Shown here in pieces: positions 285 through 31,988 of a stretch of 52,312 nt of DNA; position 1 is the stretch's first letter, and every line of letters begins with the position of its first letter. The position numbers were made by a program, and so were the translations under genes. This DNA comes from Thermodesulfovibrionales bacterium (GTDB lineage Bacteria; Nitrospirota; Thermodesulfovibrionia; Thermodesulfovibrionales; JdFR-86), in contig JAUXOF010000055.1 of assembly GCA_030682405.1 (NCBI GenBank), positions 1 to 52,312 on the forward strand. The letters run 5' to 3'. Below the pieces are notes generated by a model that worked only from the letters and a program-made list of their open reading frames with translations, was not told the origin of the DNA and did not search any database.

Positions 285-2390
285 ATGAAATTTTTTAACC
301 CCCTGGCGCTTGTCGTCATGTCCGTCTGCCTGCTTTTACCGTCCGGCGTATCGTCCGCCGCCCAGCAGGAGGATAGGGTCGCATTCAATTTCGTGGACAT
401 AGAGCTTTCCACGATAACGAAATTCATAAGCGGGATTACAGGGAAAAACTTCATATTCGACGAGCGCGTAAAGGGCAAGATAACCATAATAGCGCCGGGG
501 AAGCTCTCTACCAAGGACGCCTTCAGCCTTTTTACCTCCGTGCTTGAGCTTAAGGGGTTTACCGTCATCCCCTCAGGGGTGGACGCATATAAAATCGTCC
601 CTTCGGCGCAGGCAAGGCAGAGCGGGTTAGCAGTCTCCACGGAGAGGACGCCGGTCAATGAGAGCTACATGGCAAGGCTCATCCCCATAAAACACATCTC
701 CCCTGACGACGCCCTGCGGTTTCTTCAGCCTGTGGTCTCAAAGGACGGCCACATATCCGCCTTCGGCCCGGGCAACATGCTCCTTGTGATAGATTCAGGG
801 CTAAACATAGAAAAGCTGCTCTTCATCCTTGAGGCCATAGACCAGCCGTCTGTCAAAGAGGAGCCGGAGATAATATTCCTTAAGTATTCAAGCGCGGACA
901 CGGTTGCAAAGGTCATAGCCGAGGGGCTTAAGCCCCGGCCCGGGCAGCCGCCTGCGACCGCAGGGAAGGTGATGCCGGATTCAAGGCTCAATGCGCTCAT
1001 ACTTTTCGGAGACCAGCTCACGCGGGAGGCGATGAAAGGGCTTGTCTTGATACTGGATGTGCCCCCGCCTGAGGCGCAGGGAAGGATTAATGTCTATTTC
1101 TTAGAAAACGCCGATGCCTCGGAACTCGCAAATGTCATTAAGGGGATGCTCGGGGGCGGGCAGCCCGCGCCGGGAGCAGCGCCGTTTGAGGCGGCCAAGG
1201 GCATAAGCATTACAGCGGACAAGGCCACAAACTCCCTCGTCATAGTCGCCTCTCCCGGAGACTACCAGAGCATTGAGGAGGTCATCAGGCAGCTTGACAA
1301 AAGAAGGAAACAGGTGTTTGTAGAGGCGATGATAGTCGAGGTCTCCATAGATAAGGCCATAGACCTCGGCACCAAGTGGCGGGCCGCGGCCACGCGCAAA
1401 GGCGAACCCGCTTTAATAGGAGGGGTCGGGCAGGTGGACCAGACGACAATGGGACAGATACTGAGCGGGCTTCAAGGCCTTACGATGGGCGGCCTTGGAA
1501 ACTACTTCACAGTGCCCTCCTCATTCGTCTCGCTCGGCGCAACAGGCGACATGAAGGTGCCGGGTCTTGCCGCCCTATTCAGCCTTAACGAGTTCAAGGG
1601 GGTGGTCAACGTGCTCTCCAGCCCTCAAATCCTTACATCCGACAACAAGGAGGCCGAGATAATCGTCGGCGAAAACGTGCCGTTCGTCTCAAAAAGAGAA
1701 ATCACAACAGGCACCAGCCAGCTATTTAATAACATAGAAAGAAAGGACGTGGGCATAACCCTGAGAATCACCCCTCAGATTACTGAAGGCGATTACGTGA
1801 AGTTGGACATATATCAGGAGATATCGTCCGTGAAGCAGGAAGTAAACCCGAATATAATAATAAACGTAGGCCCGACAACGACAAAACGCTCCACAAAGAC
1901 CTTCGTGGCTGTTAAGGACAAGCAGACCGTAGTCATAGGAGGGCTTATGCAGGAAAGAGCCGATGAATCAGTCGCAAAGGTGCCTTTCCTTGGGGACATC
2001 CCCCTTATCGGGTGGCTCTTTAAGTCCAAAAGCGTAAAGAAAAATAAGACGAACCTCCTTTTGTTCATCACTCCGCACATAGTCAAAGAGGCCGAGGCTA
2101 TAGCACAGCTTACAAGCGAAAAGCAGTTAGCATTTGCAAAGGCCAACAACCAGTACACGGAGGGGGAGCTTCTGGTAAAATTTAAAGAGAATGTCTCCGA
2201 GGACAATGCCATGCTCCTGCTCCTTAAAAAGGGCGCATCCATCATAAAATACATGGAGGGCGTTAAGGTCTACCACATAAAACTCAAGGAAAAGCAGAAG
2301 GTAAAGGATGCGATAAAGGAGTATCAGGCCCTGCCTGAGGTGGAGTACGCAGAGCCTGATTACAAAGTAAATATTCAAGATGCAAAATGA
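285..2390 (+). CDS. gspD: Type II secretion system secretin GspD with C-terminal subtilase-propeptide-like extension
   Basis: Outer-membrane secretin forming the T2SS exit channel. A signal peptide (about residues 1-26, ending near SSAA) is followed by an N0 domain (about 33-100), N1-N3 repeats (about 115-340) and the secretin core (about 380-615). The core holds VGENVPF, VGITLRITPQI, VVIGGLMQE and the terminal FLGDIPLIGWLFK region. Residues 626-701 (DNA 2160-2387) are not standard secretin or S-domain sequence. They carry [15 protein letters not shown] and PEVEYAEPDY, which align with the propeptide of the subtilisin-like protease at 28980-31382. An in-frame TAG at 279-281 fixes the upstream limit. 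The start is ATG 285, or possibly ATG 318. It is first in the operon, and gspE overlaps its end. Confidence 0.95.
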   Translation: MKFFNPLALVVMSVCLLLPSGVSSAAQQEDRVAFNFVDIELSTITKFISGITGKNFIFDERVKGKITIIAPGKLSTKDAFSLFTSVLELKGFTVIPSGVDAYKIVPSAQARQSGLAVSTERTPVNESYMARLIPIKHISPDDALRFLQPVVSKDGHISAFGPGNMLLVIDSGLNIEKLLFILEAIDQPSVKEEPEIIFLKYSSADTVAKVIAEGLKPRPGQPPATAGKVMPDSRLNALILFGDQLTREAMKGLVLILDVPPPEAQGRINVYFLENADASELANVIKGMLGGGQPAPGAAPFEAAKGISITADKATNSLVIVASPGDYQSIEEVIRQLDKRRKQVFVEAMIVEVSIDKAIDLGTKWRAAATRKGEPALIGGVGQVDQTTMGQILSGLQGLTMGGLGNYFTVPSSFVSLGATGDMKVPGLAALFSLNEFKGVVNVLSSPQILTSDNKEAEIIVGENVPFVSKREITTGTSQLFNNIERKDVGITLRITPQITEGDYVKLDIYQEISSVKQEVNPNIIINVGPTTTKRSTKTFVAVKDKQTVVIGGLMQERADESVAKVPFLGDIPLIGWLFKSKSVKKNKTNLLLFITPHIVKEAEAIAQLTSEKQLAFAKANNQYTEGELLVKFKENVSEDNAMLLLLKKGASIIKYMEGVKVYHIKLKEKQKVKDAIKEYQALPEVEYAEPDYKVNIQDAK

Positions 2391-3897
2391 AAAAACCATC
2401 AATGCCATAAAAGACGAGGACGTTGAGCTTTCCCTCGTAAAAGAAGTCCCGCTGTCTTTTGCGAGGGGCAACACGCTCATGCCCCTCCGGAGGGAGGGCG
2501 GCCTCCTCCTTGCCGCAGTTGCCAACGGAAAGGGAGCGCTTGCCCTCAGGGAACTCGCAGGACACTTCGGCCTTAACCCCTCCCCAATCACCGCCCCGCC
2601 AGGGGCCGTCATAGACGCGATAAACAGGTTCTACGGACAGGTGGGCTCGGCAGAGGAGGTCATGGGCAACATAACCGGAGAGGACCTGTCCTCTCTTGCC
2701 ACTGAGTTTGAAAAGCCCAGAGACATACTTGAGCTTACAGAGGAGGCCCCGATAATCCGGCTCCTAAATGCGATACTTCAGCAGGCCGTAAAGGAGAGGG
2801 CAAGCGACATCCATTTAGAGCCTTATGAAAAGGAGCTTGACGTGAGGCTCAGGGTGGACGGCATGCTCCACAGGGTTCTGTCCCCGCCCAAGATTATTCA
2901 GGACGCCCTGATAAGCAGGGTCAAAATCATGGCGAACCTTGACATAGGGGAGAAGAGGCTTCCTCAGGACGGAAGGATCAGGCTCCTTATAGGCGGCAGG
3001 GACATAGACATCAGGGTCTCGGTAATCCCGACCTCTTTCGGAGAAAGGGCGGTGCTGAGGCTTCTTGACAGGAAGCAGGGGATAATCGGGCTGTGGGAAG
3101 TGGGCCTCAACAAAGAGGACATAAGGCATCTTGAGGAACTCCTTTCAAGGACAAGCGGAATACTTTTGGTTACAGGCCCCACTGGAAGCGGAAAGACCAC
3201 AACCCTTTATGGGATGCTCAACAGGATTCATACGGAAGAAAAAAACATCCTCACAGTCGAAGACCCGGTGGAGTACCAGATTAAGGGCATCGGCCAGATA
3301 CAGGTCAACCCCAAAATCGGCCTTACATTCGCCTCCGGCCTGAGGTCTATTTTAAGGCAGGACCCGGACGTGATTATGGTCGGCGAGATACGGGATTTTG
3401 AGACTGCGGAGATTGCGATTCAGGCATCCCTCACGGGCCATCTCGTCCTGAGCACCCTGCACACAAACGATGCGCCTGCTGCCGTAACAAGGCTTGTGGA
3501 CATGGGCGTTGAGCCTTTTCTTGTGGCCTCCTCAATAGCAGGAGTGCTCGCCCAGAGGCTCGTCAGGGTCATATGCCCGCACTGCAAGGAACCGCACGGG
3601 CCGACAGAGGAGGAGGCAAGATACGTCTCAGTCCCGGAGGTCTGGAGGGGAAAGGGCTGCGGGAAATGCGCAGGCTCGGGTTATCTTGGAAGGACCGGAG
3701 TGTTTGAGCTTCTTGTCGTGGACGACGAAATAAGGCACATGATTACCGAAAAGACGGACGCCCAAAGCATTAAAAGCTTTGCGGTCTCAAAGGGCCTTAA
3801 GGCGCTGAGGCTTGACGGCTTTGAGAAGGTGGCAACCGGCATCACCACTTTAGAGGAAGTCTTGAGGGTGACGCAAAAAGACGCCCAAGAAACGTAG
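2380..3897 (+). CDS. gspE: Type II secretion ATPase GspE
   Basis: Cytoplasmic hexameric ATPase that powers pseudopilus assembly. The 505-residue protein has an N-terminal MshEN-like region (about 1-90), which docks to GspL in this family. Then come the Walker A motif GPTGSGKTT (about 267-275), the Asp box, Walker B DPDVIMVGEIRD, the His box LSTLHTNDA and a zinc-binding tetracysteine motif (CPHC about 399, then CGKC). All catalytic elements are present. The start overlaps the gspD stop by 11 nt with no clear Shine-Dalgarno, so translational coupling is likely. The tetracysteine separates it from most PilT-type retraction ATPases. Confidence 0.95.
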   Translation: MQNEKTINAIKDEDVELSLVKEVPLSFARGNTLMPLRREGGLLLAAVANGKGALALRELAGHFGLNPSPITAPPGAVIDAINRFYGQVGSAEEVMGNITGEDLSSLATEFEKPRDILELTEEAPIIRLLNAILQQAVKERASDIHLEPYEKELDVRLRVDGMLHRVLSPPKIIQDALISRVKIMANLDIGEKRLPQDGRIRLLIGGRDIDIRVSVIPTSFGERAVLRLLDRKQGIIGLWEVGLNKEDIRHLEELLSRTSGILLVTGPTGSGKTTTLYGMLNRIHTEEKNILTVEDPVEYQIKGIGQIQVNPKIGLTFASGLRSILRQDPDVIMVGEIRDFETAEIAIQASLTGHLVLSTLHTNDAPAAVTRLVDMGVEPFLVASSIAGVLAQRLVRVICPHCKEPHGPTEEEARYVSVPEVWRGKGCGKCAGSGYLGRTGVFELLVVDDEIRHMITEKTDAQSIKSFAVSKGLKALRLDGFEKVATGITTLEEVLRVTQKDAQET

Positions 3898-3900
3898 GGC

Positions 3901-5073
3901 ATGCCTATTTTCCAGTACAGAGGGTATAAGCCTGACGGCTCTTCCGCATCAGGCACAGTGGAGGCCGACGGGCTTTCCGAGGCGGTCTTAAATGTCAGGG
4001 AATTGGGCGTCTACCCAAAAGAGGTCTCTGAATATATCCCTAAGGGCGCCGGGGCTTTCAAAAGGTCCGATGCCGTTCTCCTGCCATACGTAACAAGACA
4101 GCTTGCAACCCTGCTTGGAGCAGGGGTGCCCTTGATAGAGTCTTTGCGGTCTTTGGCCGAAGAAAGCAAGGGCGGGTGGAAGCATGTGCTTTTAAACGTG
4201 AGGGAGAGGGTCTCAGGGGGGGAGAGCCTCTCAAGGAGCCTTGAGGGGCAGGGGAAGGTCTTCCCCGGATTTTATGTGAACCTCGTTTCCGCAGGAGAGG
4301 AAAGCGGCGCCCTCGACAAAGTGCTTCTTAGTCTTTCGGATTTCCTTGAGCAGGAGGCCGCAATAAAGGCAAGGATACGGGCTGCCATGACATATCCTGC
4401 ATTCATGGTCTCTGTCGGGTTTGTAGTCCTTGCGTTTCTTTTTGTGTTCGTCATACCCAAAATAGTGAAAATCTTTGAGACCACAAAGAGCGCCCTTCCC
4501 CTTATCACGGTAGTCCTCATAGGGGTAAGCAACTTCTTCTTAAACTACTGGTGGCTTGTCATTATCGCGCTTCTGGGCGCTGTAACAGGGGCAAGGAGGC
4601 TGAACGAAAGGCACAGGCAGAAGGTTGACGCCTTAAAACTCAGGGCGCCGGGCAATGTCATCCAGAGCCTTTATTACACGCGGTTTGCGCGCACGCTCGG
4701 ATTTCTGCTTAAGGCCGGGCTTCCGATGCTCAAGGCCCTTGAGCTTACGGCCAAATCCATAGGAAACACGGTTCTTGAGGTTAGGGTTTCGGCTGCTGCC
4801 AAAAGGGTCGGGGAAGGCGCAAGGCTGTCCCAGTCCCTTGAAGGGTTTCCTCCTGTGCTCCTTCAGCTTATCTCAACAGGGGAAAGGAGCGGCAGGCTGG
4901 CAGAGGTCTTAGGTAGCGCAGCCAATTCCTATGAAGAGGAGTTTACGCGGAGGGTTCAGAGGGCGCTTTCCCTGCTTGAGCCGGGGATGATTCTGGTTAT
5001 GGGACTTGCCGTGGGTTTTATAGTCATGGCAGTGCTTCTGCCGCTGTTTCAGCTTAACCAACTGATAAAATGA
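3901..5073 (+). CDS. gspF: Type II secretion inner-membrane platform protein GspF
   Basis: Polytopic platform protein of the T2SS, made of two repeated T2SSF domains (about residues 55-180 and 258-380). Hydrophobic segments lie near 165-190, 200-222 and 358-382. Typical elements include RQLATLLGAGVPLIESL in the first half, its counterpart RFARTLGFLLKAGLPMLKAL in the second, and ending LLPLFQLNQLIK. Its 390 residues are normal for the family. It begins 3 nt after the gspE stop, within the same operon. Confidence 0.94.
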   Translation: MPIFQYRGYKPDGSSASGTVEADGLSEAVLNVRELGVYPKEVSEYIPKGAGAFKRSDAVLLPYVTRQLATLLGAGVPLIESLRSLAEESKGGWKHVLLNVRERVSGGESLSRSLEGQGKVFPGFYVNLVSAGEESGALDKVLLSLSDFLEQEAAIKARIRAAMTYPAFMVSVGFVVLAFLFVFVIPKIVKIFETTKSALPLITVVLIGVSNFFLNYWWLVIIALLGAVTGARRLNERHRQKVDALKLRAPGNVIQSLYYTRFARTLGFLLKAGLPMLKALELTAKSIGNTVLEVRVSAAAKRVGEGARLSQSLEGFPPVLLQLISTGERSGRLAEVLGSAANSYEEEFTRRVQRALSLLEPGMILVMGLAVGFIVMAVLLPLFQLNQLIK

Positions 5074-5106
5074 TATAATTATTAAATGCCTATGACTCGG
5101 AGGAAA

Positions 5107-5571
5107 ATGAAATTTAAAATAAAAGGCCGCGCCTCTTTCGCAGGGGGCCGTGCCCCGGGTTTTACACTGCTTGAGCTTATAATCGTGGTCTTTATCCTGA
5201 GCCTTCTTGCCGCTATTGTCGCGCCAAAGCTTATAGGCAGAACAGACGATGCCCGCATTGCAGAGGCAAAGGTTCAGATAAGGAATTTTGAGACCGCCTT
5301 AAAGCTCTTTAAGCTTGACACCGGGTTTTACCCGGACACGGGACAGGGGCTTGAGGCCCTCATAGAGAAACCCTCAACCGGCAAAATCCCCGGCAACTAC
5401 GGGGAGGGGGGGTATCTTGAGCAGAAGAAGATTCCGCTTGACCCGTGGGGGAATCCATACGTCTACGTATCGCCCGGGCTTAACGGCGATTTCGACATCA
5501 TAAGCTACGGCGCCGACGGAAATGAGGGCGGTAGCGGCAAAGACAAAGACATTGCGAATTGGGACATGTAA
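5107..5571 (+). CDS. gspG: Major pseudopilin GspG
   Basis: Major pseudopilin of the T2SS. The class III signal PGFTLLELIIVVFILSLLAAI places prepilin peptidase cleavage after the Gly, with Glu at position +5. The globular domain has the GspG hallmarks FYPDTGQGLEALIEKP, DPWGNPYVYVSPG and DIISYGADG, with acidic residues near the end fitting the calcium site. ATG 5107 is chosen because CGGAGGAAA directly precedes it. An upstream in-frame ATG at 5086 lacks a ribosome site. The last 50 nt overlap the predicted start of gspH. No prepilin peptidase (gspO) is in the window. Confidence 0.93.
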   Translation: MKFKIKGRASFAGGRAPGFTLLELIIVVFILSLLAAIVAPKLIGRTDDARIAEAKVQIRNFETALKLFKLDTGFYPDTGQGLEALIEKPSTGKIPGNYGEGGYLEQKKIPLDPWGNPYVYVSPGLNGDFDIISYGADGNEGGSGKDKDIANWDM

Positions 5572-6031
5572 CGCAGCGCCTGCAGACGGCCGTGCCCGTG
5601 GTTTTACCCTCCTTGAGCTTATAGCGGTAATATTCATAATCTCGCTTCTGGCTGCCGTGGCATTCCCCTCTTTCCGGGGGACAGGGGAAAGGAAACTCAG
5701 GTCGGATGCAAGAAATATATCTTCCATGCTGAGGTACCTCAACGACAGCGCGGTTGCGGCAAAGGAGACCTATTCCGTGAAGTTTGACATAGGCTCAGGT
5801 GCTGTGCTTTGGGAAGGCCCTGAGGGCAAAAGGACTGAAAAGTTCAAAAGCATCGCAGCCCTCTATTTGCAGTCAAAGGGCACGGTCAGGGAGGGCGAGG
5901 TTAAGGTCTTTGCCGGGCCGATGGGGTTTCAGGAACATTTAAAAGTGCATCTAAGAGACGGCGACAACGCAATGACCGTGGAGTTCAATCCCATAAGCGG
6001 AAGGACGAAGATAACCGGGGATGAGAAATAA
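5522..6031 (+). CDS. gspH: Minor pseudopilin GspH
   Basis: Minor pseudopilin with the class III signal RGFTLLELIAVIFIISLLAAVAFP at about residues 26-49 and a beta-rich C-terminal region. It overlaps gspG by 50 nt. The N-terminal leader is long, and an alternative in-frame TTG at 5552 would shorten it to 15 residues before the Gly-Phe cleavage site. Length and position between gspG and gspI support GspH. It caps or seeds the pseudopilus together with GspI, J and K. Confidence 0.85.
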   Translation: MRAVAAKTKTLRIGTCNAAPADGRARGFTLLELIAVIFIISLLAAVAFPSFRGTGERKLRSDARNISSMLRYLNDSAVAAKETYSVKFDIGSGAVLWEGPEGKRTEKFKSIAALYLQSKGTVREGEVKVFAGPMGFQEHLKVHLRDGDNAMTVEFNPISGRTKITGDEK

Positions 6032-6359
6032 CAGGGGCTTTACACTTTTGGAAATCATAATTGCGCTTGCCGTTGTGGGCAGCCTTCTTGTCACGCTTAT
6101 TTATACATTAAACCACCACCTCGGCATTGCCGAAAGGCACGAGTCGGTCACAGTAGCCTCCCTTCTGGCAAAAAACAAGATGGCTGAGATGGAGGAAAAA
6201 CCCGAGCCTTCCACAGGCACATTCCCTGAGCCTTACTCCGGATACGGCTATGCAACTCTGGTAAATGCATCCCTGTTTGCCGGCCTGTCCGAGGTCTCGG
6301 TTAAGGTTATAAGGGGCTCGGAGAGCATCAAACTCACAGAGCTTATAAGGAGCAGATGA
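6021..6359 (+). CDS. gspI: Minor pseudopilin GspI
   Basis: A 112-residue pseudopilin with a very short leader and prepilin signal RGFTLLEIIIALAVVGSLLVTLIYTLNHH. It is followed by the family-typical KNKMAEME segment near residue 55. It overlaps gspH by 11 nt and gspJ by 4 nt, indicating coupled translation. The assignment rests on size, order and the helix sequence. Confidence 0.85.
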   Translation: MRNNRGFTLLEIIIALAVVGSLLVTLIYTLNHHLGIAERHESVTVASLLAKNKMAEMEEKPEPSTGTFPEPYSGYGYATLVNASLFAGLSEVSVKVIRGSESIKLTELIRSR

Positions 6360-6961
6360 TGCTGGAGAGGCTGAAGAATAAAGGCTTTACACTCATAGAG
6401 GTGCTTATTGCCGTCACCCTGCTTTCGATAATCTTAGGCGCCCTTTACAGCACCTTCTTCCTTTCCGAAAGGGCGATGGGGGCTGTTGACGAATCCCTTC
6501 TTAAGCTCCGCGAACTGCGGACGGCCCTCGATACCATCGGCAGGGAGGTTGAGGCAGTCTCTTACAGCAGGACAGCCGATTATACTGCCTTCAGAGTGCA
6601 GGACAGGGATATATACGGGAAGCAGGCGTCGAGGTTTTCGTTTTCCTGCTTTTCCCCGCTTTCACCGGGCCTCTCTATGGTCTCCTACTACGCCGAGGAA
6701 ACAGACGGCAGGCTCGTGCTTTTTAAGAAAGTGAAGCCGGCCCGGCCCGGCCCTTTTGATGACGAGGAGGCGGAAATCATGGAGGACATCAGAGAGTTTT
6801 CGGTTGAGGTAAAAAGCGGAGACCGGTGGGTAAGGACATGGGATGCCGGGGAGACCGGAAGGGTGCCTGAGGAAATAAGGGTCAGCATTACGGTCTCGAT
6901 TAAGGGAAGGGAGCTGTCCCTCTATGAGACCCTGCGGCCCAAGATAGGAAGGCTGCTGTGA
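6356..6961 (+). CDS. gspJ: Minor pseudopilin GspJ
   Basis: A 201-residue pseudopilin with signal KGFTLIEVLIAVTLLSIILGALYSTFF at about residues 10-36. The REL-T-LDTIGREVEAV and FRVQDRDIYG... regions are typical of GspJ. The start overlaps gspI (ATGATG) and the stop overlaps the GTG of gspK. In known systems GspJ joins GspI and GspK at the pseudopilus tip. Confidence 0.85.
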   Translation: MMLERLKNKGFTLIEVLIAVTLLSIILGALYSTFFLSERAMGAVDESLLKLRELRTALDTIGREVEAVSYSRTADYTAFRVQDRDIYGKQASRFSFSCFSPLSPGLSMVSYYAEETDGRLVLFKKVKPARPGPFDDEEAEIMEDIREFSVEVKSGDRWVRTWDAGETGRVPEEIRVSITVSIKGRELSLYETLRPKIGRLL

Positions 6962-7860
6962 AGGCAGGCAGGAGGCGGCGAGGGCGCGTGATGGATGGAG
7001 GGGGCATGGCGCTTGTGCTTGTGCTCATGGTGATTGCAATAATAACCGCTCTTGTTGTGGAGTTCGCATACGGGGTTTACATAAATACAAGCTCTTTAGC
7101 CAACTGGCAGGCAGGCCAGAGGCTTTCGCTTGCCTCAAGGTCAGCCGTGAGGCTGGCGGCAAAGACCATAGCTGAGAAGGCAGAGGGCCGAAAATACACC
7201 TATCCGGGTTTTATAGAGCTGTCTTACGAAAACCCTCTTGAGGCCGGAGGGGCAGTGCTCATCAGGGCCGAGGACGAGAACTCCAAGTTCAACATAAACA
7301 CAGTCATCTACCCCAACGGCAAGCTGAACAAAGAGGCGTACGATTCCCTTATGCGACTCCTTGGAGCGCTTGAGCTTGACCCCGGCATTGCAGGCAGGGT
7401 TGCCGACTGGATAGACCCGGACTCCGAACCGCGGCTTACAGATTCAGAGGATGAGGCAAAAAACGCCCCGCTTAACAGCGTTGATGAGATATTATTAATA
7501 AGGAGCATAGACAGGGAGGCTTACGCCAAGCTTCAGCCCTATATTACGATATACGGCTCCGGAGCGATAAACATAAACGGCGCCGATGTCCTTGTGCTTA
7601 TGTCTTTGTCTGAGGGAATAGACAGGGAGATGGCTGGAAGGGTTGTGGGGTACAGGGATGTTACGCGCTTTGAGAGCCCGGGGGAGATTTCCAAGGTGGC
7701 GGGTTTTGAGGGGGATTTAGGCATATACCTCATGGGAAAAATAACAGTAAAAGGCTCTGTTTTTCGTATAATATCCACTGCGGTGTCAGGGGATATAAAA
7801 AGGACCATAGAGGCTGTTGTTGACCTCGGCGAGGTTGTAAAATACTGGAAGGAGACATGA
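6958..7860 (+). CDS. gspK: Minor pseudopilin GspK
   Basis: Large tip pseudopilin of 300 residues. The prepilin segment G-MALVLVLMVIAIITALVVEF begins near residue 16 and, as is usual in GspK, lacks the Glu at +5. Family features follow: DENSKFNIN, VADWIDPDSEPR and NAPLNSVDEILLI, then a helix-hairpin-helix-like INGADVLVLMSL segment. The start is GTG at 6958, overlapping the gspJ TGA. An internal ATG at 6991 would leave a 5-residue leader and is also plausible. Confidence 0.88.
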   Translation: MKAGRRRRGRVMDGGGMALVLVLMVIAIITALVVEFAYGVYINTSSLANWQAGQRLSLASRSAVRLAAKTIAEKAEGRKYTYPGFIELSYENPLEAGGAVLIRAEDENSKFNINTVIYPNGKLNKEAYDSLMRLLGALELDPGIAGRVADWIDPDSEPRLTDSEDEAKNAPLNSVDEILLIRSIDREAYAKLQPYITIYGSGAININGADVLVLMSLSEGIDREMAGRVVGYRDVTRFESPGEISKVAGFEGDLGIYLMGKITVKGSVFRIISTAVSGDIKRTIEAVVDLGEVVKYWKET

Positions 7861-7882
7861 GGGCTGTGATAAGGTGTATGGG

Positions 7883-8950
7883 ATGGGAAAAGTAGCGTTT
7901 ATAGATTATAAGGAAGGCGAAGGCTCGGTTTATATAATAGACAAGGGCTCAGGCGGAAGCGAAACCGTGCCCCTGTCTTTAAGCGGTGACGGCTCATTCG
8001 GCACAAACAGGACGTTTCAGAACATTGATGAGACATATCTCAGCCTGCCCATGGGCCTCCTTAATTTCCGCATCCTTGAACTTCCCTTTGACAATATGGA
8101 CAGCATCAGGGAAGTGCTCCCGTTTGAACTTGACGGCATCATCATTGGAGGCTCGGAAAGCGTTGTCATAGACGCTGTTGTCATTGGAAAGGGCAACGGG
8201 AAGTTCAGGGTCATTGCCGTATATGTCTTAAAGGATGTTTTAAGGACTGCCCTTAAAAAGTTCAAGGCCATCGGCATAGACCCACGGGCCGTGACTTCCA
8301 TAGAGCTTGCCTCTGTTGTCGGCTCGTCTTCAGCCGGAGACGGGCTTGCCGAAGCGCTCCTTGCCCCGTGCCGGATGGAGGACGGGGAGCGCATGGATGC
8401 CGCGTTAAAGGAAATTGCAGGCCCTTTTATAAACCTCAGAAGGGGAGAATTCTCCTACCGGGTAGATACCGAGAAGGCGCGAAAATCACTGATGATTGCC
8501 GCAGGGCTGGGCCTCCTGATTGTCTCGGTTTTCATATTCGGCACGGGCTTTAGGATTATTACGGCAAAAAAGGAGATAACAACCCTCAAAGACGGAATAA
8601 GGAAGACATATACAGGCGTTTTCCCCGAAGAAAAGAAGATAACCAACGAGCTTTATCAGATGAAGGCCCACATGAAGGAGTTAAAGGAAAAGGAGCAGTC
8701 ATTAACAGGGGTCAGCCCGCTTGAGCTTCTGCTTAAGCTGTCAAAGGTCGTAAAGCCGGGCCTCTCCTTTACCGAGATATCCGCTGACAAGGAGAGGATA
8801 GCGCTTAAGGGCGAATGCCCTACGCTCAGCGACGTGCAGGGGATAAAAGACGGGCTTGAGGGGTTCCTCGCCGGGGTAAGCATTTCGGACGCAAAGCCCT
8901 CAGGGGCAAAGACCGCATTTACGATTACCGCAAAGGGGAGAAAAGATTGA
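7883..8950 (+). CDS. gspL: Type II secretion inner-membrane protein GspL
   Basis: Bitopic assembly-platform protein. The cytoplasmic actin-like domain (about 1-190) binds GspE in known systems. It is followed by a single membrane helix (SLMIAAGLGLLIVSVFIFGTGF, about 202-223) and a periplasmic coiled and ferredoxin-like region. The start is taken as ATG 7883 because AAGG lies 8 nt upstream. A GTG at 7874 in the same frame is the alternative. It overlaps gspM by 4 nt. Confidence 0.85.
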   Translation: MGKVAFIDYKEGEGSVYIIDKGSGGSETVPLSLSGDGSFGTNRTFQNIDETYLSLPMGLLNFRILELPFDNMDSIREVLPFELDGIIIGGSESVVIDAVVIGKGNGKFRVIAVYVLKDVLRTALKKFKAIGIDPRAVTSIELASVVGSSSAGDGLAEALLAPCRMEDGERMDAALKEIAGPFINLRRGEFSYRVDTEKARKSLMIAAGLGLLIVSVFIFGTGFRIITAKKEITTLKDGIRKTYTGVFPEEKKITNELYQMKAHMKELKEKEQSLTGVSPLELLLKLSKVVKPGLSFTEISADKERIALKGECPTLSDVQGIKDGLEGFLAGVSISDAKPSGAKTAFTITAKGRKD

Positions 8951-9444
8951 TGCCCAAAAACAGGATGCTCGTAGCCGCTGCCTGCGCTCTGGCCTTTATA
9001 GCCGGCTCTATTGCGCTTTTTAACTATTCCTCATCCCTTAAGAGGGAGGTTACGGACCTCAAGGCACGGCAGAAGGAACTGATTGCGCTTAAGGACGAAT
9101 ACCAGTCATTAAAGGGCAGGGTTGATACGGTGGAGGGCAAGAAGTCGCTTACGAAAGTGGAGGGCATAGTTTCCGCTGTGGATGAGGTCTTTCAGTCAAT
9201 AGGGCTTAAGCAGAGCTTAAAATCGGTAAAACCAACGGCACAAAGGGAGTTGGCGGACTCTGTGGAGGAAGAGGCTGAGATACAGATAGAGAAGGTCGGC
9301 ATGAACGAGATGGTGAACATATTCCACAAGTTCGACACCGCACCCATGCTCATTACCGTAAAAAAGACTACCATCAAGACATCGTTTGATAACCCCTCGC
9401 TTCTGAATATAACGATAACGGCCTCTTTGATTAAACCCAAATGA
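8947..9444 (+). CDS. gspM: Type II secretion protein GspM
   Basis: A short bitopic protein with a membrane helix at about residues 8-26. A heptad-like coiled segment (LKREVTDLKARQKELIALKDEYQSLKGRV) and a small ferredoxin-like periplasmic domain follow. Size, topology and its place after gspL support GspM, which partners GspL. It overlaps gspL and gspN by 4 nt each. Confidence 0.8.
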   Translation: MMPKNRMLVAAACALAFIAGSIALFNYSSSLKREVTDLKARQKELIALKDEYQSLKGRVDTVEGKKSLTKVEGIVSAVDEVFQSIGLKQSLKSVKPTAQRELADSVEEEAEIQIEKVGMNEMVNIFHKFDTAPMLITVKKTTIKTSFDNPSLLNITITASLIKPK

Positions 9445-10229
9445 AGTGGTTCTGGCGGATTCTCGCTGCCGGTATGAGCCTGACCATACTCGTATCCGGC
9501 GCATGGCTGATAGCAGTGCCTGAGGGACTTCTAAGGGATGTCATCGAGACTCCGAGGGGAGACATCTCGGCAGAGGCCGGGGGACTGAGTAAGGGATGGT
9601 TTTTCAACTTCCGAGCCGATGAGATTACTCTCATCAGGCAGGATAAAGAGATTCTAACGATAGAAAATGTCTCATGCAGGATAAACCCTCTCCCTCTCCT
9701 TCTTTTAAAGGTCTCCCTTGAGATTGAAGGAGACCTTGCCGGCGGAAGGCTCGCGGGCAGAGCGACCCTCCATAGAAAGGGCATCTCCGCCTCGGTCAGG
9801 GTAGATGCCGCGGACGCCTCCGGCATAGCCTTCCTAAGCTCCCTCGGAGTGGTCGAGAGGGGCACGCTCTCCGGAGACCTTTCTTTAAGGGACGGAAGCG
9901 GAGAGGTAAGGTTCTCGCTCGATGACGCGCGGCTTAAAGACAGGGTGTTTTCCGGCGTCCCCGTTCCTCTAAGCCTGTTCCGTGCCGCGAAGGCCGCGCT
10001 CACGGTCAAAGACGGCTCGCTCTCCGTAACATCCTTCAGCCTTAAAGGGGAGGGCATTTATGCAAGGGTCAAAGGGGATGTTAAGGCGCGGGTTCTTGAT
10101 TTAACAATAGAGATAATGCCGGATGCCTCATTTAAGGAAAAACCCTTCCTCTGGGCGATTATGCAGTATCAGGTCTCACCGGGGTATTATGTGATACCTG
10201 TAAGGGGAGATTTGACTCAGGGTTCGTAA
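9441..10229 (+). CDS. gspN: Type II secretion protein GspN
   Basis: A 262-residue protein with one N-terminal membrane helix (about 5-24) and a long beta-rich region with alternating short hydrophobic strands (LSGDLSLRDGSGEVRFSL, VKDGSLSVTSFSLKG). This pattern fits the GspN family, whose exact role in secretion is unsettled. It is last in the operon, and its stop lies inside a triple hairpin repeat (10219-10277). Identification rests on position, topology and general pattern more than on invariant motifs. Confidence 0.75.
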   Translation: MKWFWRILAAGMSLTILVSGAWLIAVPEGLLRDVIETPRGDISAEAGGLSKGWFFNFRADEITLIRQDKEILTIENVSCRINPLPLLLLKVSLEIEGDLAGGRLAGRATLHRKGISASVRVDAADASGIAFLSSLGVVERGTLSGDLSLRDGSGEVRFSLDDARLKDRVFSGVPVPLSLFRAAKAALTVKDGSLSVTSFSLKGEGIYARVKGDVKARVLDLTIEIMPDASFKEKPFLWAIMQYQVSPGYYVIPVRGDLTQGS

Positions 10230-28979: not shown

Positions 28980-31382
28980 TCAAGCGTTTTTTAAGTTTTT
29001 GGGAATAATCGCCAAGGGCATAAAGGCGGCAAGGCAGAGAACAAGCAGGGACAAAAACGGGTATTTAATCCCAAAAACAAACGGGGCGAGGCCGGCCCTC
29101 GCAATAAGCCTCAAAATCTCATGTTCTCTTATGTAGTCCGCCACAGGCGGGGACGTCCTGTAGTAAAGCCTCACAAACGCCCTGCCTGCGGGGTTTGTAA
29201 GAAGATAGTTGTCCCTGAAGTCCCTTAAGACTTTCACATTGGGGTCAAGGTAAGAGCCGTACGCGGCAGTTGCAATGAAGCATCTGCCTCCGCCCCCGCC
29301 TTCTGGGGAAGAGCCTCCGGGGGTTGTTATGCCCGCCTCATTAGTATAGGCAGAGTCCGTATATTGCGTATATGCCTTTACCCTGTAGTAGTAGGTCACG
29401 CCCGGCAGGAAAGCCGTGTCCGTGTATGTGGTCACGTTTGCCCCTGTAGTCGCTACCGGGTTGTATAAGCCTGTTGACGTTGCCTTGCGCTCCACCTTAA
29501 AGCCTGTTTCGGCATTGGAGTTGTCGGTCCAAGAGAGGTCAACCTTCAAGGCCGATGCGCTTGCCAGGAGGCTGTCCGGTGCGGAAAGAGCGGTAGTTAC
29601 GGATGCCCCTTTTGAGGGCGAGGAAGCTCCCGATACCACGGAGTTTACCGCGACTACGCGGTAGTAATACGTTATGCCCTCGGTTAAGCCGGTGTTCTGA
29701 TAAGTAGTCGTATCAGCCGGGAGCGTGGTAATTAGGGCGTAGACGCCTGCAGAGCCTTCTTTTTTCTCCACATTGAAGTCCGTCTCGTTTGCAGAATTGT
29801 CCGCCCACGAAATATTAGCGGCTGAGGCTGAAACCAATGCGGCGGACACTCCCGAGGGCGGCATGATAATGGCCTGAGGGTCAAGGGAAAGCGCCCTTTT
29901 CGCGTTTATCCTTGCCTCTGTAATGAGCGTGCCGTTAAGGGAGCCGAGCCTGTCCGAGGTCGCCAGTATGACCTCTTTTAGCTCACGGTAGGTGTAGGAG
30001 GGCCTGTAGGACGACAGGAGCGCAACAAGCCCGCTGACGTGCGGGGCCGCCATGGACGTGCCGCTCATATAGCCGTAGCTTCCGAGCGCAACCCTTATAG
30101 TGCTCCTGATGTTCATCCCCGGTGCGGCAATATGCACCGAGCTTGCCCCGTAGTTTGAAAACCATGCGAGGTTGTCCTTTTGCTCAGTGGCTAAAACCGC
30201 TATTATGTTCGGCAGGTTGTGGCTTGCAGGGTAAGTGGGAGAACCGTCATTATTATTCTGACAATTTCCCGCAGCAGCCACAAAGAGTATTCCGGCGTCC
30301 GCTGCTGCCGAAATCGCGGATTTCTCGGCAATTGAAGCAGGAAGATTTACACAAGAAGAAGTTGTATATGCATAGCTTGCGTTTATCGCCCTTATATTAA
30401 CGCCTCTTTGGCGCATCATGACTGCATAATCTATGGCTGCCAATTCATCGGATGTGTTGCCTGAGCCTGTTGAGTCAAGAAATTTTAGCGGCATGAGCTT
30501 TACGCTCCAGTTGACCCCGCTTACGCCTGTTAGGTTATTGCCAATCGCTCCGATGATTCCTGCCGCATGGGTCCCGTGGCCGTCAATGTCGTCGTCCATG
30601 GGGTTGGGTGTGCCGTAAGCGAAGTTCCATCCCCGGCAGTCGTCTATATATCCGTTTCCGTCGTCGTCAATGCCGTTTGATGAGTTCGTAAGAGCGCATT
30701 CCTCCGGGTTCTGCCACATGTTTGCGGAAATATCAGGATGGTTATAATCAATGCCCGTATCCAAGACGGCAACGATGACATTCCCAAGCCCTGTGTGCAG
30801 GTCCCACGCCCCATCATTCCCGGATGAACCGGCATCAATGTCGGCATCTACCGTGCCGGTCACCGTCCCCTGGTCCCCTGAGATGGTCTGCCCTGTGTTA
30901 TGCAGTCCCCACTGGCTGCCAAAATACACATCGTTGGGGATGACCGCCTTATGAATCATGTAATTCGGCTCTGCGTACTCAACATCAGGGTCTTCCATGT
31001 ATTTTTTGACTGCATCGGCCACGGAAAGCCCGTGGGGGAGCTTTATATGCTCTACCCCTATGCCCTTGAACCTCTGTTTAAGCGTTGCGCCTGCCGACCT
31101 GTGAGCGGACTGCGCCTTAAGTTCTCCTCCGGGCTTGAACTTGACAAGGAGTTCGCCCTCTTTATACGCCCCCTTAGGAGCGGACTTGAGCCTTTCACCC
31201 GAGAGGACGGCCTCCTGACCGGCGGGAGGGGAATCACCGCTTCCGCATGATACTAATAAGTGCAGAAGTAAGAGGACATATATATAATAAAATCTCCCCT
31301 CGCCCCTCTTTGCTAAAGAGGGGTTAAATGCCTCCCTTTGGCAAAGGGAGGTTAGGAGGGATTTTATATTTAATGTCTTCAT
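28980..31382 (-). CDS. Subtilisin-like serine protease lipoprotein with propeptide, FN3 domains and CFI-box C-terminus
   Basis: Secreted S8 protease of 800 residues. The N-terminus has an unusually long n-region (1-31), then a hydrophobic core and lipobox LLVSC (Cys46). A propeptide (75-147) with EGELLVKFK and [11 protein letters not shown] precedes the catalytic domain: Asp208 (AVLDTGID), His269 (GHGTH) and Ser443 (GTSMAAPH). Two fibronectin III domains lie at about 510-600 and 605-690. A Gly-rich spacer is followed by [10 protein letters not shown] (Cys701) and a C-terminal hydrophobic segment, matching the CFI-box-CTERM class. Shine-Dalgarno AAGGAG is 9 nt before the ATG. The propeptide matches the C-terminus of GspD, pointing to the T2SS. 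Confidence 0.92.
31290..31361 (-). repeat. Palindromic intergenic-type repeat lying inside the protease signal peptide
   Basis: It contains two palindromes, cctctttgctaaagagg and cctccctttggcaaagggagg, of the same type as those at 11497-11514 and 15902-15917. Here the element is translated as residues of the n-region ([12 protein letters not shown] and neighbours) of the subtilase signal peptide. Confidence 0.6.
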
Positions 31383-31454: not shown

Positions 31455-31988
31455 TTAGTTGCCGGAGTAGAAATAGACCTTGTCCCCCTTTACGAGCATG
31501 TTGAGGGAGTGCTCCGGCCTTATGCCAAAGCCTTTCTGCTTCAAGTCCCTCACTCCGGTTATCTTCATGCGGGTGAACTCCTCGTTTGAGAGCGCGGCCT
31601 CGGCTGTGAAGCTCAGGCTCCTTTCGCCCTCTTTTAGCTCTACCTTGACAAACCTAAGCCTGAGCTTGAGGCCCTTTTCCTCCATCACCATCTCTATGAG
31701 GTTGGGTGTGCGGGTCTTTATGTTCGGCTCAACCGCACCCGCCTCTATCATAAGCAAGGAGGCGCCGAACTGTTTTTTGATTTTCACGCCCGCCATCTTC
31801 TGGCGCTGTGTCATGGGAGGGGGTTTTTCTTCCTCAGGGGGTTTGTTGCATGACGAAAAAACAAGGGAAACAGACAGCGCCGCAAAAAGCAAAGCTCTCG
31901 CCTTATATGCTGCCCTGGTTTTTGCCATAAAAGACTTTGCCATAAAAGACTTTGCCATAAAAGACTTTGCCATAAAAGACTTTGCCAT
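31455..31988 (-). CDS. Small lipoprotein with a 15-bp start-codon repeat at its N-terminus
   Basis: Lipoprotein of unknown function. The outermost ATG (31988) begins four MAKSF repeats. The fifth ATG (31928) gives MAKTRAAYKARALLFAALSVSLVFSSC, a good lipoprotein signal with the lipid Cys right after VFSS. The mature part is about 150 residues, rich in Lys and Glu, with predicted beta strands (MVEEKGLKLRLRFVKVEL..., RSLSFTAEAAL). No Shine-Dalgarno precedes any of the five ATGs. It sits between the subtilase and a large lipoprotein gene on the same strand. I do not recognise the family. Confidence 0.75.
   Translation of the reverse strand: MAKSFMAKSFMAKSFMAKSFMAKTRAAYKARALLFAALSVSLVFSSCNKPPEEEKPPPMTQRQKMAGVKIKKQFGASLLMIEAGAVEPNIKTRTPNLIEMVMEEKGLKLRLRFVKVELKEGERSLSFTAEAALSNEEFTRMKITGVRDLKQKGFGIRPEHSLNMLVKGDKVYFYSGN

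Follow-up and report, generated by a model that had tools for sequence, protein, structure and literature searches.

The window analysed here, a stretch of 52,312 nucleotides from a Thermodesulfovibrionales bacterium (contig JAUXOF010000055.1), carries a type II secretion system (T2SS) operon that begins with the secretin gene gspD, and a separate gene for an S8 subtilase. The features discussed below are as follows.

285–2390, + strand: gspD, T2SS secretin of 701 aa, with N0, three Secretin_N domains, the Secretin core and then a PF22148 tail
2118–2387, + strand: propeptide-like tail of GspD (residues 612–701), made up of the PF22148 match (residues 612–692) and a short C-terminal peptide
2349–2363, + strand: AEPDY motif of the tail, with E690 aligned with Glu69 and D692 with Asp71 of the BPN' propeptide
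2364–2387, + strand: C-terminal peptide KVNIQDAK following AEPDY, at the position from which a processed propeptide would reach into the active site of its protease
2380–10229, + strand: remainder of the T2SS operon, gspE, F, G, H, I, J, K, L, M and N in order, of ordinary make-up
28980–31382, − strand: S8 subtilase of 800 aa, with a lipobox (..LLVSC), PF22148, Peptidase_S8, two fn3 domains, CFI-box-CTERM and a C-terminal hydrophobic segment
30963–31193, − strand: cis propeptide (PF22148) of the S8 subtilase, 74 bits
29076–29282, − strand: CFI-box-CTERM (NF041770) of the S8 subtilase, also present on T2SS-operon subtilases of relatives

The gspD reading frame is unbroken in the window, and its product passes the equivalog profile TIGR02517 (type_II_gspD) over residues 34–610 (E = 3e-164; 547.7 bits against a cut-off of 351). 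This match, the N0, three Secretin_N and Secretin domains found in Pfam, and the gsp operon around the gene identify the protein as a T2SS secretin, which up to residue ~610 is by its sequence an ordinary one. A long helix (about residues 600–620), at the position of the S-domain helix, precedes the tail. The contig starts just upstream of gspD, and no gspC adjoins it within positions 1–284; most relatives have a gene of gspC size (about 290–300 aa) ahead of gspD. On the − strand, the ORF at 3–194 encodes a repeat-like peptide of the VIPRLDRGIQ type.

The GspD tail is a true subtilase-propeptide domain. Residues 612–692 match PF22148 (Fervidolysin_NPro-like) over profile positions 3–81 of 81 with 61 bits (E = 1.5e-16), far above the Pfam cut-off of 21 bits; PF05922 (Inhibitor_I9) is not matched. 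The initial annotation had proposed that GspD ends in a subtilase-propeptide-like domain matching the subtilase of the same window, and PF22148 was found independently in both proteins. Its alignment and coordinates were also right, with the domain starting slightly earlier, at residue 612 and not 626. In that alignment, 32 of 71 positions (45%) are identical between GspD residues 626–701 and protease residues 75–144 (58.9 bits), the E-value of 3e-16 being that of one single pairwise comparison; such similarity greatly exceeds chance expectation. Used as a query on its own genome, the tail matched at two places only, GspD itself and the window subtilase, and the same two proteins account for all PF22148 matches in the genome at E ≤ 0.01. 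The GspD chain contains no S8 domain and ends with PF22148; hence the domain is not a cis propeptide.

The AF2 model of the tail has a predicted propeptide topology (core pLDDT about 91). The leading Foldseek matches of this model in the PDB were the propeptides 3whi, 1r6v, 1spb, 1scj and 3cnq, with a probability of 1.00 for the first three. The E-values were modest (best, 1.5e-3), as is expected for a domain of only 70 residues. Subtilase propeptides filled nearly all top ranks, and ORF2 (3wqb_B), external chaperone to the subtilase ASP of Aeromonas, appeared lower in the list. When a profile of 53 tails was searched against all PDB sequences, fervidolysin (1r6v, E = 0.007) and the prosegment of subtilisin BPN' (1spb, E = 0.1) took the first places, a weak signal that points to the right domain. 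Both the structure prediction and the propeptide profiles, which had been put forward as checks on the domain, thus favour a subtilase propeptide.

In a tree built from 82 columns, in which many forks are unresolved and the finer branching is not settled, the GspD tails mostly cluster together, apart from cis propeptides, and stand-alone Nitrospirota proteins (described below) lie nearer to the tails (support 82/89). The special match of the tail to the window subtilase that had been claimed is not supported: the tail clusters with other GspD tails, and the subtilase gene is 27 kb from gspD, a distance at which the link between the two is by itself weak. An origin of the tail as a recent copy of the window subtilase propeptide is rejected by the same clustering, as far as the short alignment allows. 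The window subtilase is a probable T2SS cargo. An ORF at 31455–31988 (− strand) begins with four tandem MAKSF copies followed by a signal-peptide-like stretch, and its true start may lie after the repeats.

Of the 95 distinct related GspDs compared, 78 carry the tail, as at least 95 residues past the secretin core that include the domain; it is absent in this comparison from the closely similar GspDs of Nitrospinota and Deltaproteobacteria. Among 396 Nitrospirota genomes, about 85–90 (counted by hand from the match table) have a match to the tail profile from the secretin end onward, all of them in the class of the window. Two of 297 genomes in the phylum of L094 (L189 and L190) also carry the tail, which is probably due to transfer or misbinning. 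The tail has been lost in a few lineages (G017, G073 and G074) and is strongly diverged in a Magnetobacterium-like family (27–57 bits). Because of its class-wide distribution, we regard the tail as an old and retained feature, and the best explanation is that it became part of the T2SS secretin through an early fusion in this Nitrospirota class and has persisted from then on. An origin by local fusion or through an assembly error, for which close relatives were to be checked, is rejected, since the tail is clade-wide.

Glu69 and Asp71 of the propeptide cap surface helices of the protease, and the stand-alone SUB1-ProM keeps Glu and Asn at the cap positions (PMC6993865). GspD E690 corresponds to Glu69 of the subtilisin BPN' propeptide by direct alignment, and D692 corresponds to Asp71 by extension of that alignment; both cap residues of I9 propeptides are therefore present in the window GspD. 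Every one of the 78 tails in the first set has Glu690; at position 692, N or D occurs in 85%. In a wider sample, the exceptions are confined to family f4, in which (i) K or R replaces Glu690 in G040, G389, G058 and G076, all four without S8; (ii) T or S replaces it in G008 and G049, of one genus, with S8 elsewhere in the genome; and (iii) Glu690 is retained in all three genera with an operon S8 gene. This pattern of Glu loss against S8 absence comprises few independent events and is suggestive. The argument that an invariant Glu690 proves protease binding is weakened by degenerate PF22148 domains on anti-sigma-like proteins, which have no known protease and yet retain the Glu, though not the N/D.

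Such degenerate domains, presumably periplasmic, form the ends of transmembrane proteins of about 205–213 aa (L126, 2477–3109, −; L127, 3457–4095, +; L165, 783–1403, +; L169, 1103–1714, −). The L126 protein, the one scanned, has a weak zf-HC2 match in an anti-sigma-like N-terminus, and some of the transmembrane PF22148 proteins sit in genomes without this T2SS gspD. Because anti-sigma-like proteins end in a degenerate copy, the PF22148 fold can serve without a known protease partner.

Of 77 tails, 52 end 6–9 residues past the N/D of the AEP(N/D)Y motif, and the window GspD ends at +9 after D692; the remaining tails are extended, some with a SPOR domain. Stand-alone PF22148 homologues end within the same 6–9 residues in 18 of 25 cases, nearly all at +7 and with a terminal Q-K. 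Tails and stand-alone proteins share this ending, usually with Q or Q-K last, and cis propeptides have no such chain end by construction. The processed BPN' propeptide likewise ends six residues past Asp71; the tail ending lies about where a processed propeptide stops. In ORF2 of Aeromonas sobria, the C-terminal Gln-Pro-Lys lies in the active site of ASP and inhibits it with an IC50 of 84 nM (PMC5638518), and SUB1-ProM combines Glu and Asn/Asp caps with a C-terminal tail in the active site (PMC6993865). By analogy with these two proteins, KVNIQDAK may have an active-site role.

Genes for S8 subtilases with PF22148 lie inside the T2SS operon, on the same strand, in 11 genomes (L057, L066, L038, G014, G020, G031, G035, G044, G053, G067 and G071), a better link between tail and protease than the distant window subtilase provides. 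Three arrangements were observed, upstream of gspC, downstream of gspN (often with overlapping frames), and between gspF and the pseudopilin genes. In a systematic sample of 39 genomes, 8 such cases were found against 0.6 expected by a rough estimate. The Asp, His and Ser catalytic motifs are intact in most operon subtilases; the exceptions are L120, whose gene is split, and L115 and L066, which do not fit the motif patterns applied. A lipobox is common among the operon subtilases, and some of them have a terminal CFI-box-CTERM, like the window subtilase. The gene for a non-S8 protein with CFI-box-CTERM and a HELFHAF-like motif lies within or next to the T2SS operon in L053 (9760–11637, +; with a DUF6055 match), L055 (11489–13345, +) and L054 (12602–15055, +), and in L053 and L055 it occupies the position of the subtilase in related genomes. 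These occurrences suggest that CFI-box-CTERM marks T2SS cargo.

At the level of whole genomes, 39 of the 48 that carry this gspD have S8 genes, versus 9 of the 33 that lack it (Fisher p = 2e-6, kinship ignored). A one-to-one partnership of tail and protease, however, is contradicted by eight tailed genomes, several of them 98–100% complete, in which S8 was not found at E ≤ 0.01; five of the eight keep Glu690. Conversely, three genomes with a tailless gspD carry S8 with PF22148. Tail loss as a strict proxy for S8 loss is thus rejected, with mismatches both ways. A tie between tail erosion and the absence of S8 with PF22148 was also considered, and tail scores are lower in such genomes (median 78 versus 112 bits, p = 0.002), a difference confounded by kinship.

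The next-best matches to the tail profile, in other Nitrospirota (mostly family f29), are single-domain proteins of about 130–160 aa, most of which have a lipobox-like ..STSCD.. (read by eye from the sequence). In each of 14 Nitrospirota loci that contain such a gene in full, it directly adjoins an S8 gene; these loci were chosen by the tail profile alone, and a 15th locus at a contig end and another without a stand-alone gene were left out. The neighbouring S8 protein has its own propeptide in all but one of the 14. In G017, whose gspD is tailless in an otherwise complete operon, a stand-alone PF22148 gene lies just upstream of a subtilase gene. Small stand-alone proteins of this kind, ending in YAEPNYxxxxQK, are encoded directly beside S8 in L173–L186 (Nitrospirota outside the class of the window) and also in G539 and G683 (another phylum). 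The arrangement looks like a widespread gene pair of a trans propeptide and its subtilase.

In published structures of T2SS secretins, nearly the whole secretin is periplasmic and the C-terminal S-domain lies on the outer face of the channel (PMC6532946). The tail stands in place of the S-domain end in GspD. In the GspD paralogues of L099, L102, L105 and L108, a linker and then a SPOR domain come after the propeptide-like domain; SPOR domains bind peptidoglycan. Given the S-domain position and the SPOR extensions, the tail is most likely periplasmic and would flank the channel on the outside. Of the earlier proposal that the protease is held at the exit, the fixation to the T2SS secretin stands, and a location at the extracellular exit is not supported.

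We favour, at slightly better than even chances, a role of the tail as a periplasmic, secretin-tethered propeptide that acts in trans to inhibit or chaperone a subtilase cargo. Because such proteases are often encoded within the T2SS operon, the secretin probably carries a built-in handler or inhibitor for the exported protease. A more specific scheme, in which a ring of secretin-fixed propeptides holds or folds the protease cargo in the periplasm and passes it to the channel, is put forward tentatively, at somewhat less than even chances. In the favoured reading, a secretin would bear up to about 15 copies of the tail along its periplasmic side, beneath the outer membrane. Each copy would hold a subtilase cargo by its catalytic domain, using the sheet face and the cap residues (Glu690 and Asp/Asn692) with which a cis propeptide binds, and the free C-terminus of the tail would lie in the active-site groove. 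The waiting protease would be kept inactive, and the tail would perhaps also aid its folding or queue it at the machine; the secretin and the envelope would be protected until the protease leaves. Protease cargo of the T2SS can damage the envelope if export fails: in V. cholerae, T2SS mutants are relieved by mutations in the gene for one such cargo, VesC (PMC7771236). ORF2 performs a comparable task for ASP as a free protein (PMC5638518). Besides the eight tailed genomes in which S8 was not found and the three tailless ones with S8 and PF22148, four points count against the tethered trans propeptide: (i) a second propeptide is not obviously needed, because the subtilases already have their own in cis; (ii) the tail C-terminus is not always free, because some GspDs extend past the tail, either at length or with a SPOR domain; (iii) the tail of the Magnetobacterium-like family is strongly diverged; and (iv) the fold also occurs on the anti-sigma-like proteins described above.

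Because eight tailed genomes have no detectable subtilase, the chief rival is a purely structural role, in which the propeptide fold was exapted for assembly, piloting or stability of the secretin as a substitute for the S-domain end, with no protease involved. The location of the tail exactly at the S-domain position, the SPOR extensions after some tails and the persistence of diverged tails in Magnetobacterium-like genomes fit such a role. We consider it a serious but less likely alternative: conservation is focused on the protease-capping motif, the C-terminus ends at propeptide length, G017 has a tailless GspD in an otherwise complete operon, and the stand-alone relatives examined adjoin subtilases. 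The tail could instead be a docking receptor that recruits a propeptide-free subtilase, or a wider cargo, as a reader of a targeting signal and not as an inhibitor or foldase. The operon S8 genes and the co-occurrence of S8 with gspD fit docking as they fit the tethered trans propeptide, and a site on the periplasmic part of the secretin suits recruitment; we also know of no universal cargo signal for the T2SS. Known trans propeptides inhibit tightly, however, and the terminal Q/K of the tails, versus mostly small residues at the equivalent position of cis propeptides, weakly suggests a retained inhibitor, which makes mere docking quite improbable. That the tail is a mere passenger, left from an old fusion and under no selection for function, accords with its loss in the three tailless lineages and is very improbable for a domain kept over most of the class with an almost invariant motif and an intact frame.

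How the T2SS recognizes folded cargo is a long-standing question, and T2SS-exported proteases are dangerous while periplasmic. A propeptide-fused secretin offers a domain for which the sequence suggests a partner and whose removal can leave the channel intact; the likely cargo is encoded in the same operon. If the ring of secretin-fixed propeptides is real, the secretion machine would have built-in, cargo-specific protease control, and the T2SS would have a defined cargo-binding element. The stand-alone gene pairs of other Nitrospirota provide a simpler parallel system for the same domain.

In agreement with the initial annotation, a search of the open-access literature found no secretin described as having a propeptide domain; an automatic domain-architecture listing of the tailed secretin may well exist. 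Secretin and propeptide are both known kinds; what appears to be new is their fusion across a clade, together with the operon link and the pairing of stand-alone genes with subtilases. The tail can be compared with four known systems. (i) The S-domains that act with pilotins (PulD/PulS, EpsD/EpsS and ExeD) occupy the same place past the secretin core, and a helix likewise precedes the tail; they are short helical segments, and the S-domain description consulted mentions no propeptide-like domain. (ii) The fervidolysin propeptide (1r6v) also belongs to PF22148 and is the best sequence match among solved structures, but it acts in cis, N-terminal to its protease. (iii) The MEROPS I9 inhibitors (POIA1, the yeast proteinase B inhibitor, Arabidopsis SPI-1, Toxoplasma MIC5 and Plasmodium SUB1-ProM) are propeptide folds freed from the protease; none is fused to a secretion channel, and the GspD tail matches PF22148 and not their PF05922. 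(iv) ASP/ORF2 (3wqb) likewise has a propeptide fold that acts in trans on a secreted subtilase and is encoded next to the subtilase gene. ORF2 is separate and soluble and ASP lacks a propeptide of its own, whereas the GspD domain is fused to the secretin and the subtilases keep their cis propeptides.
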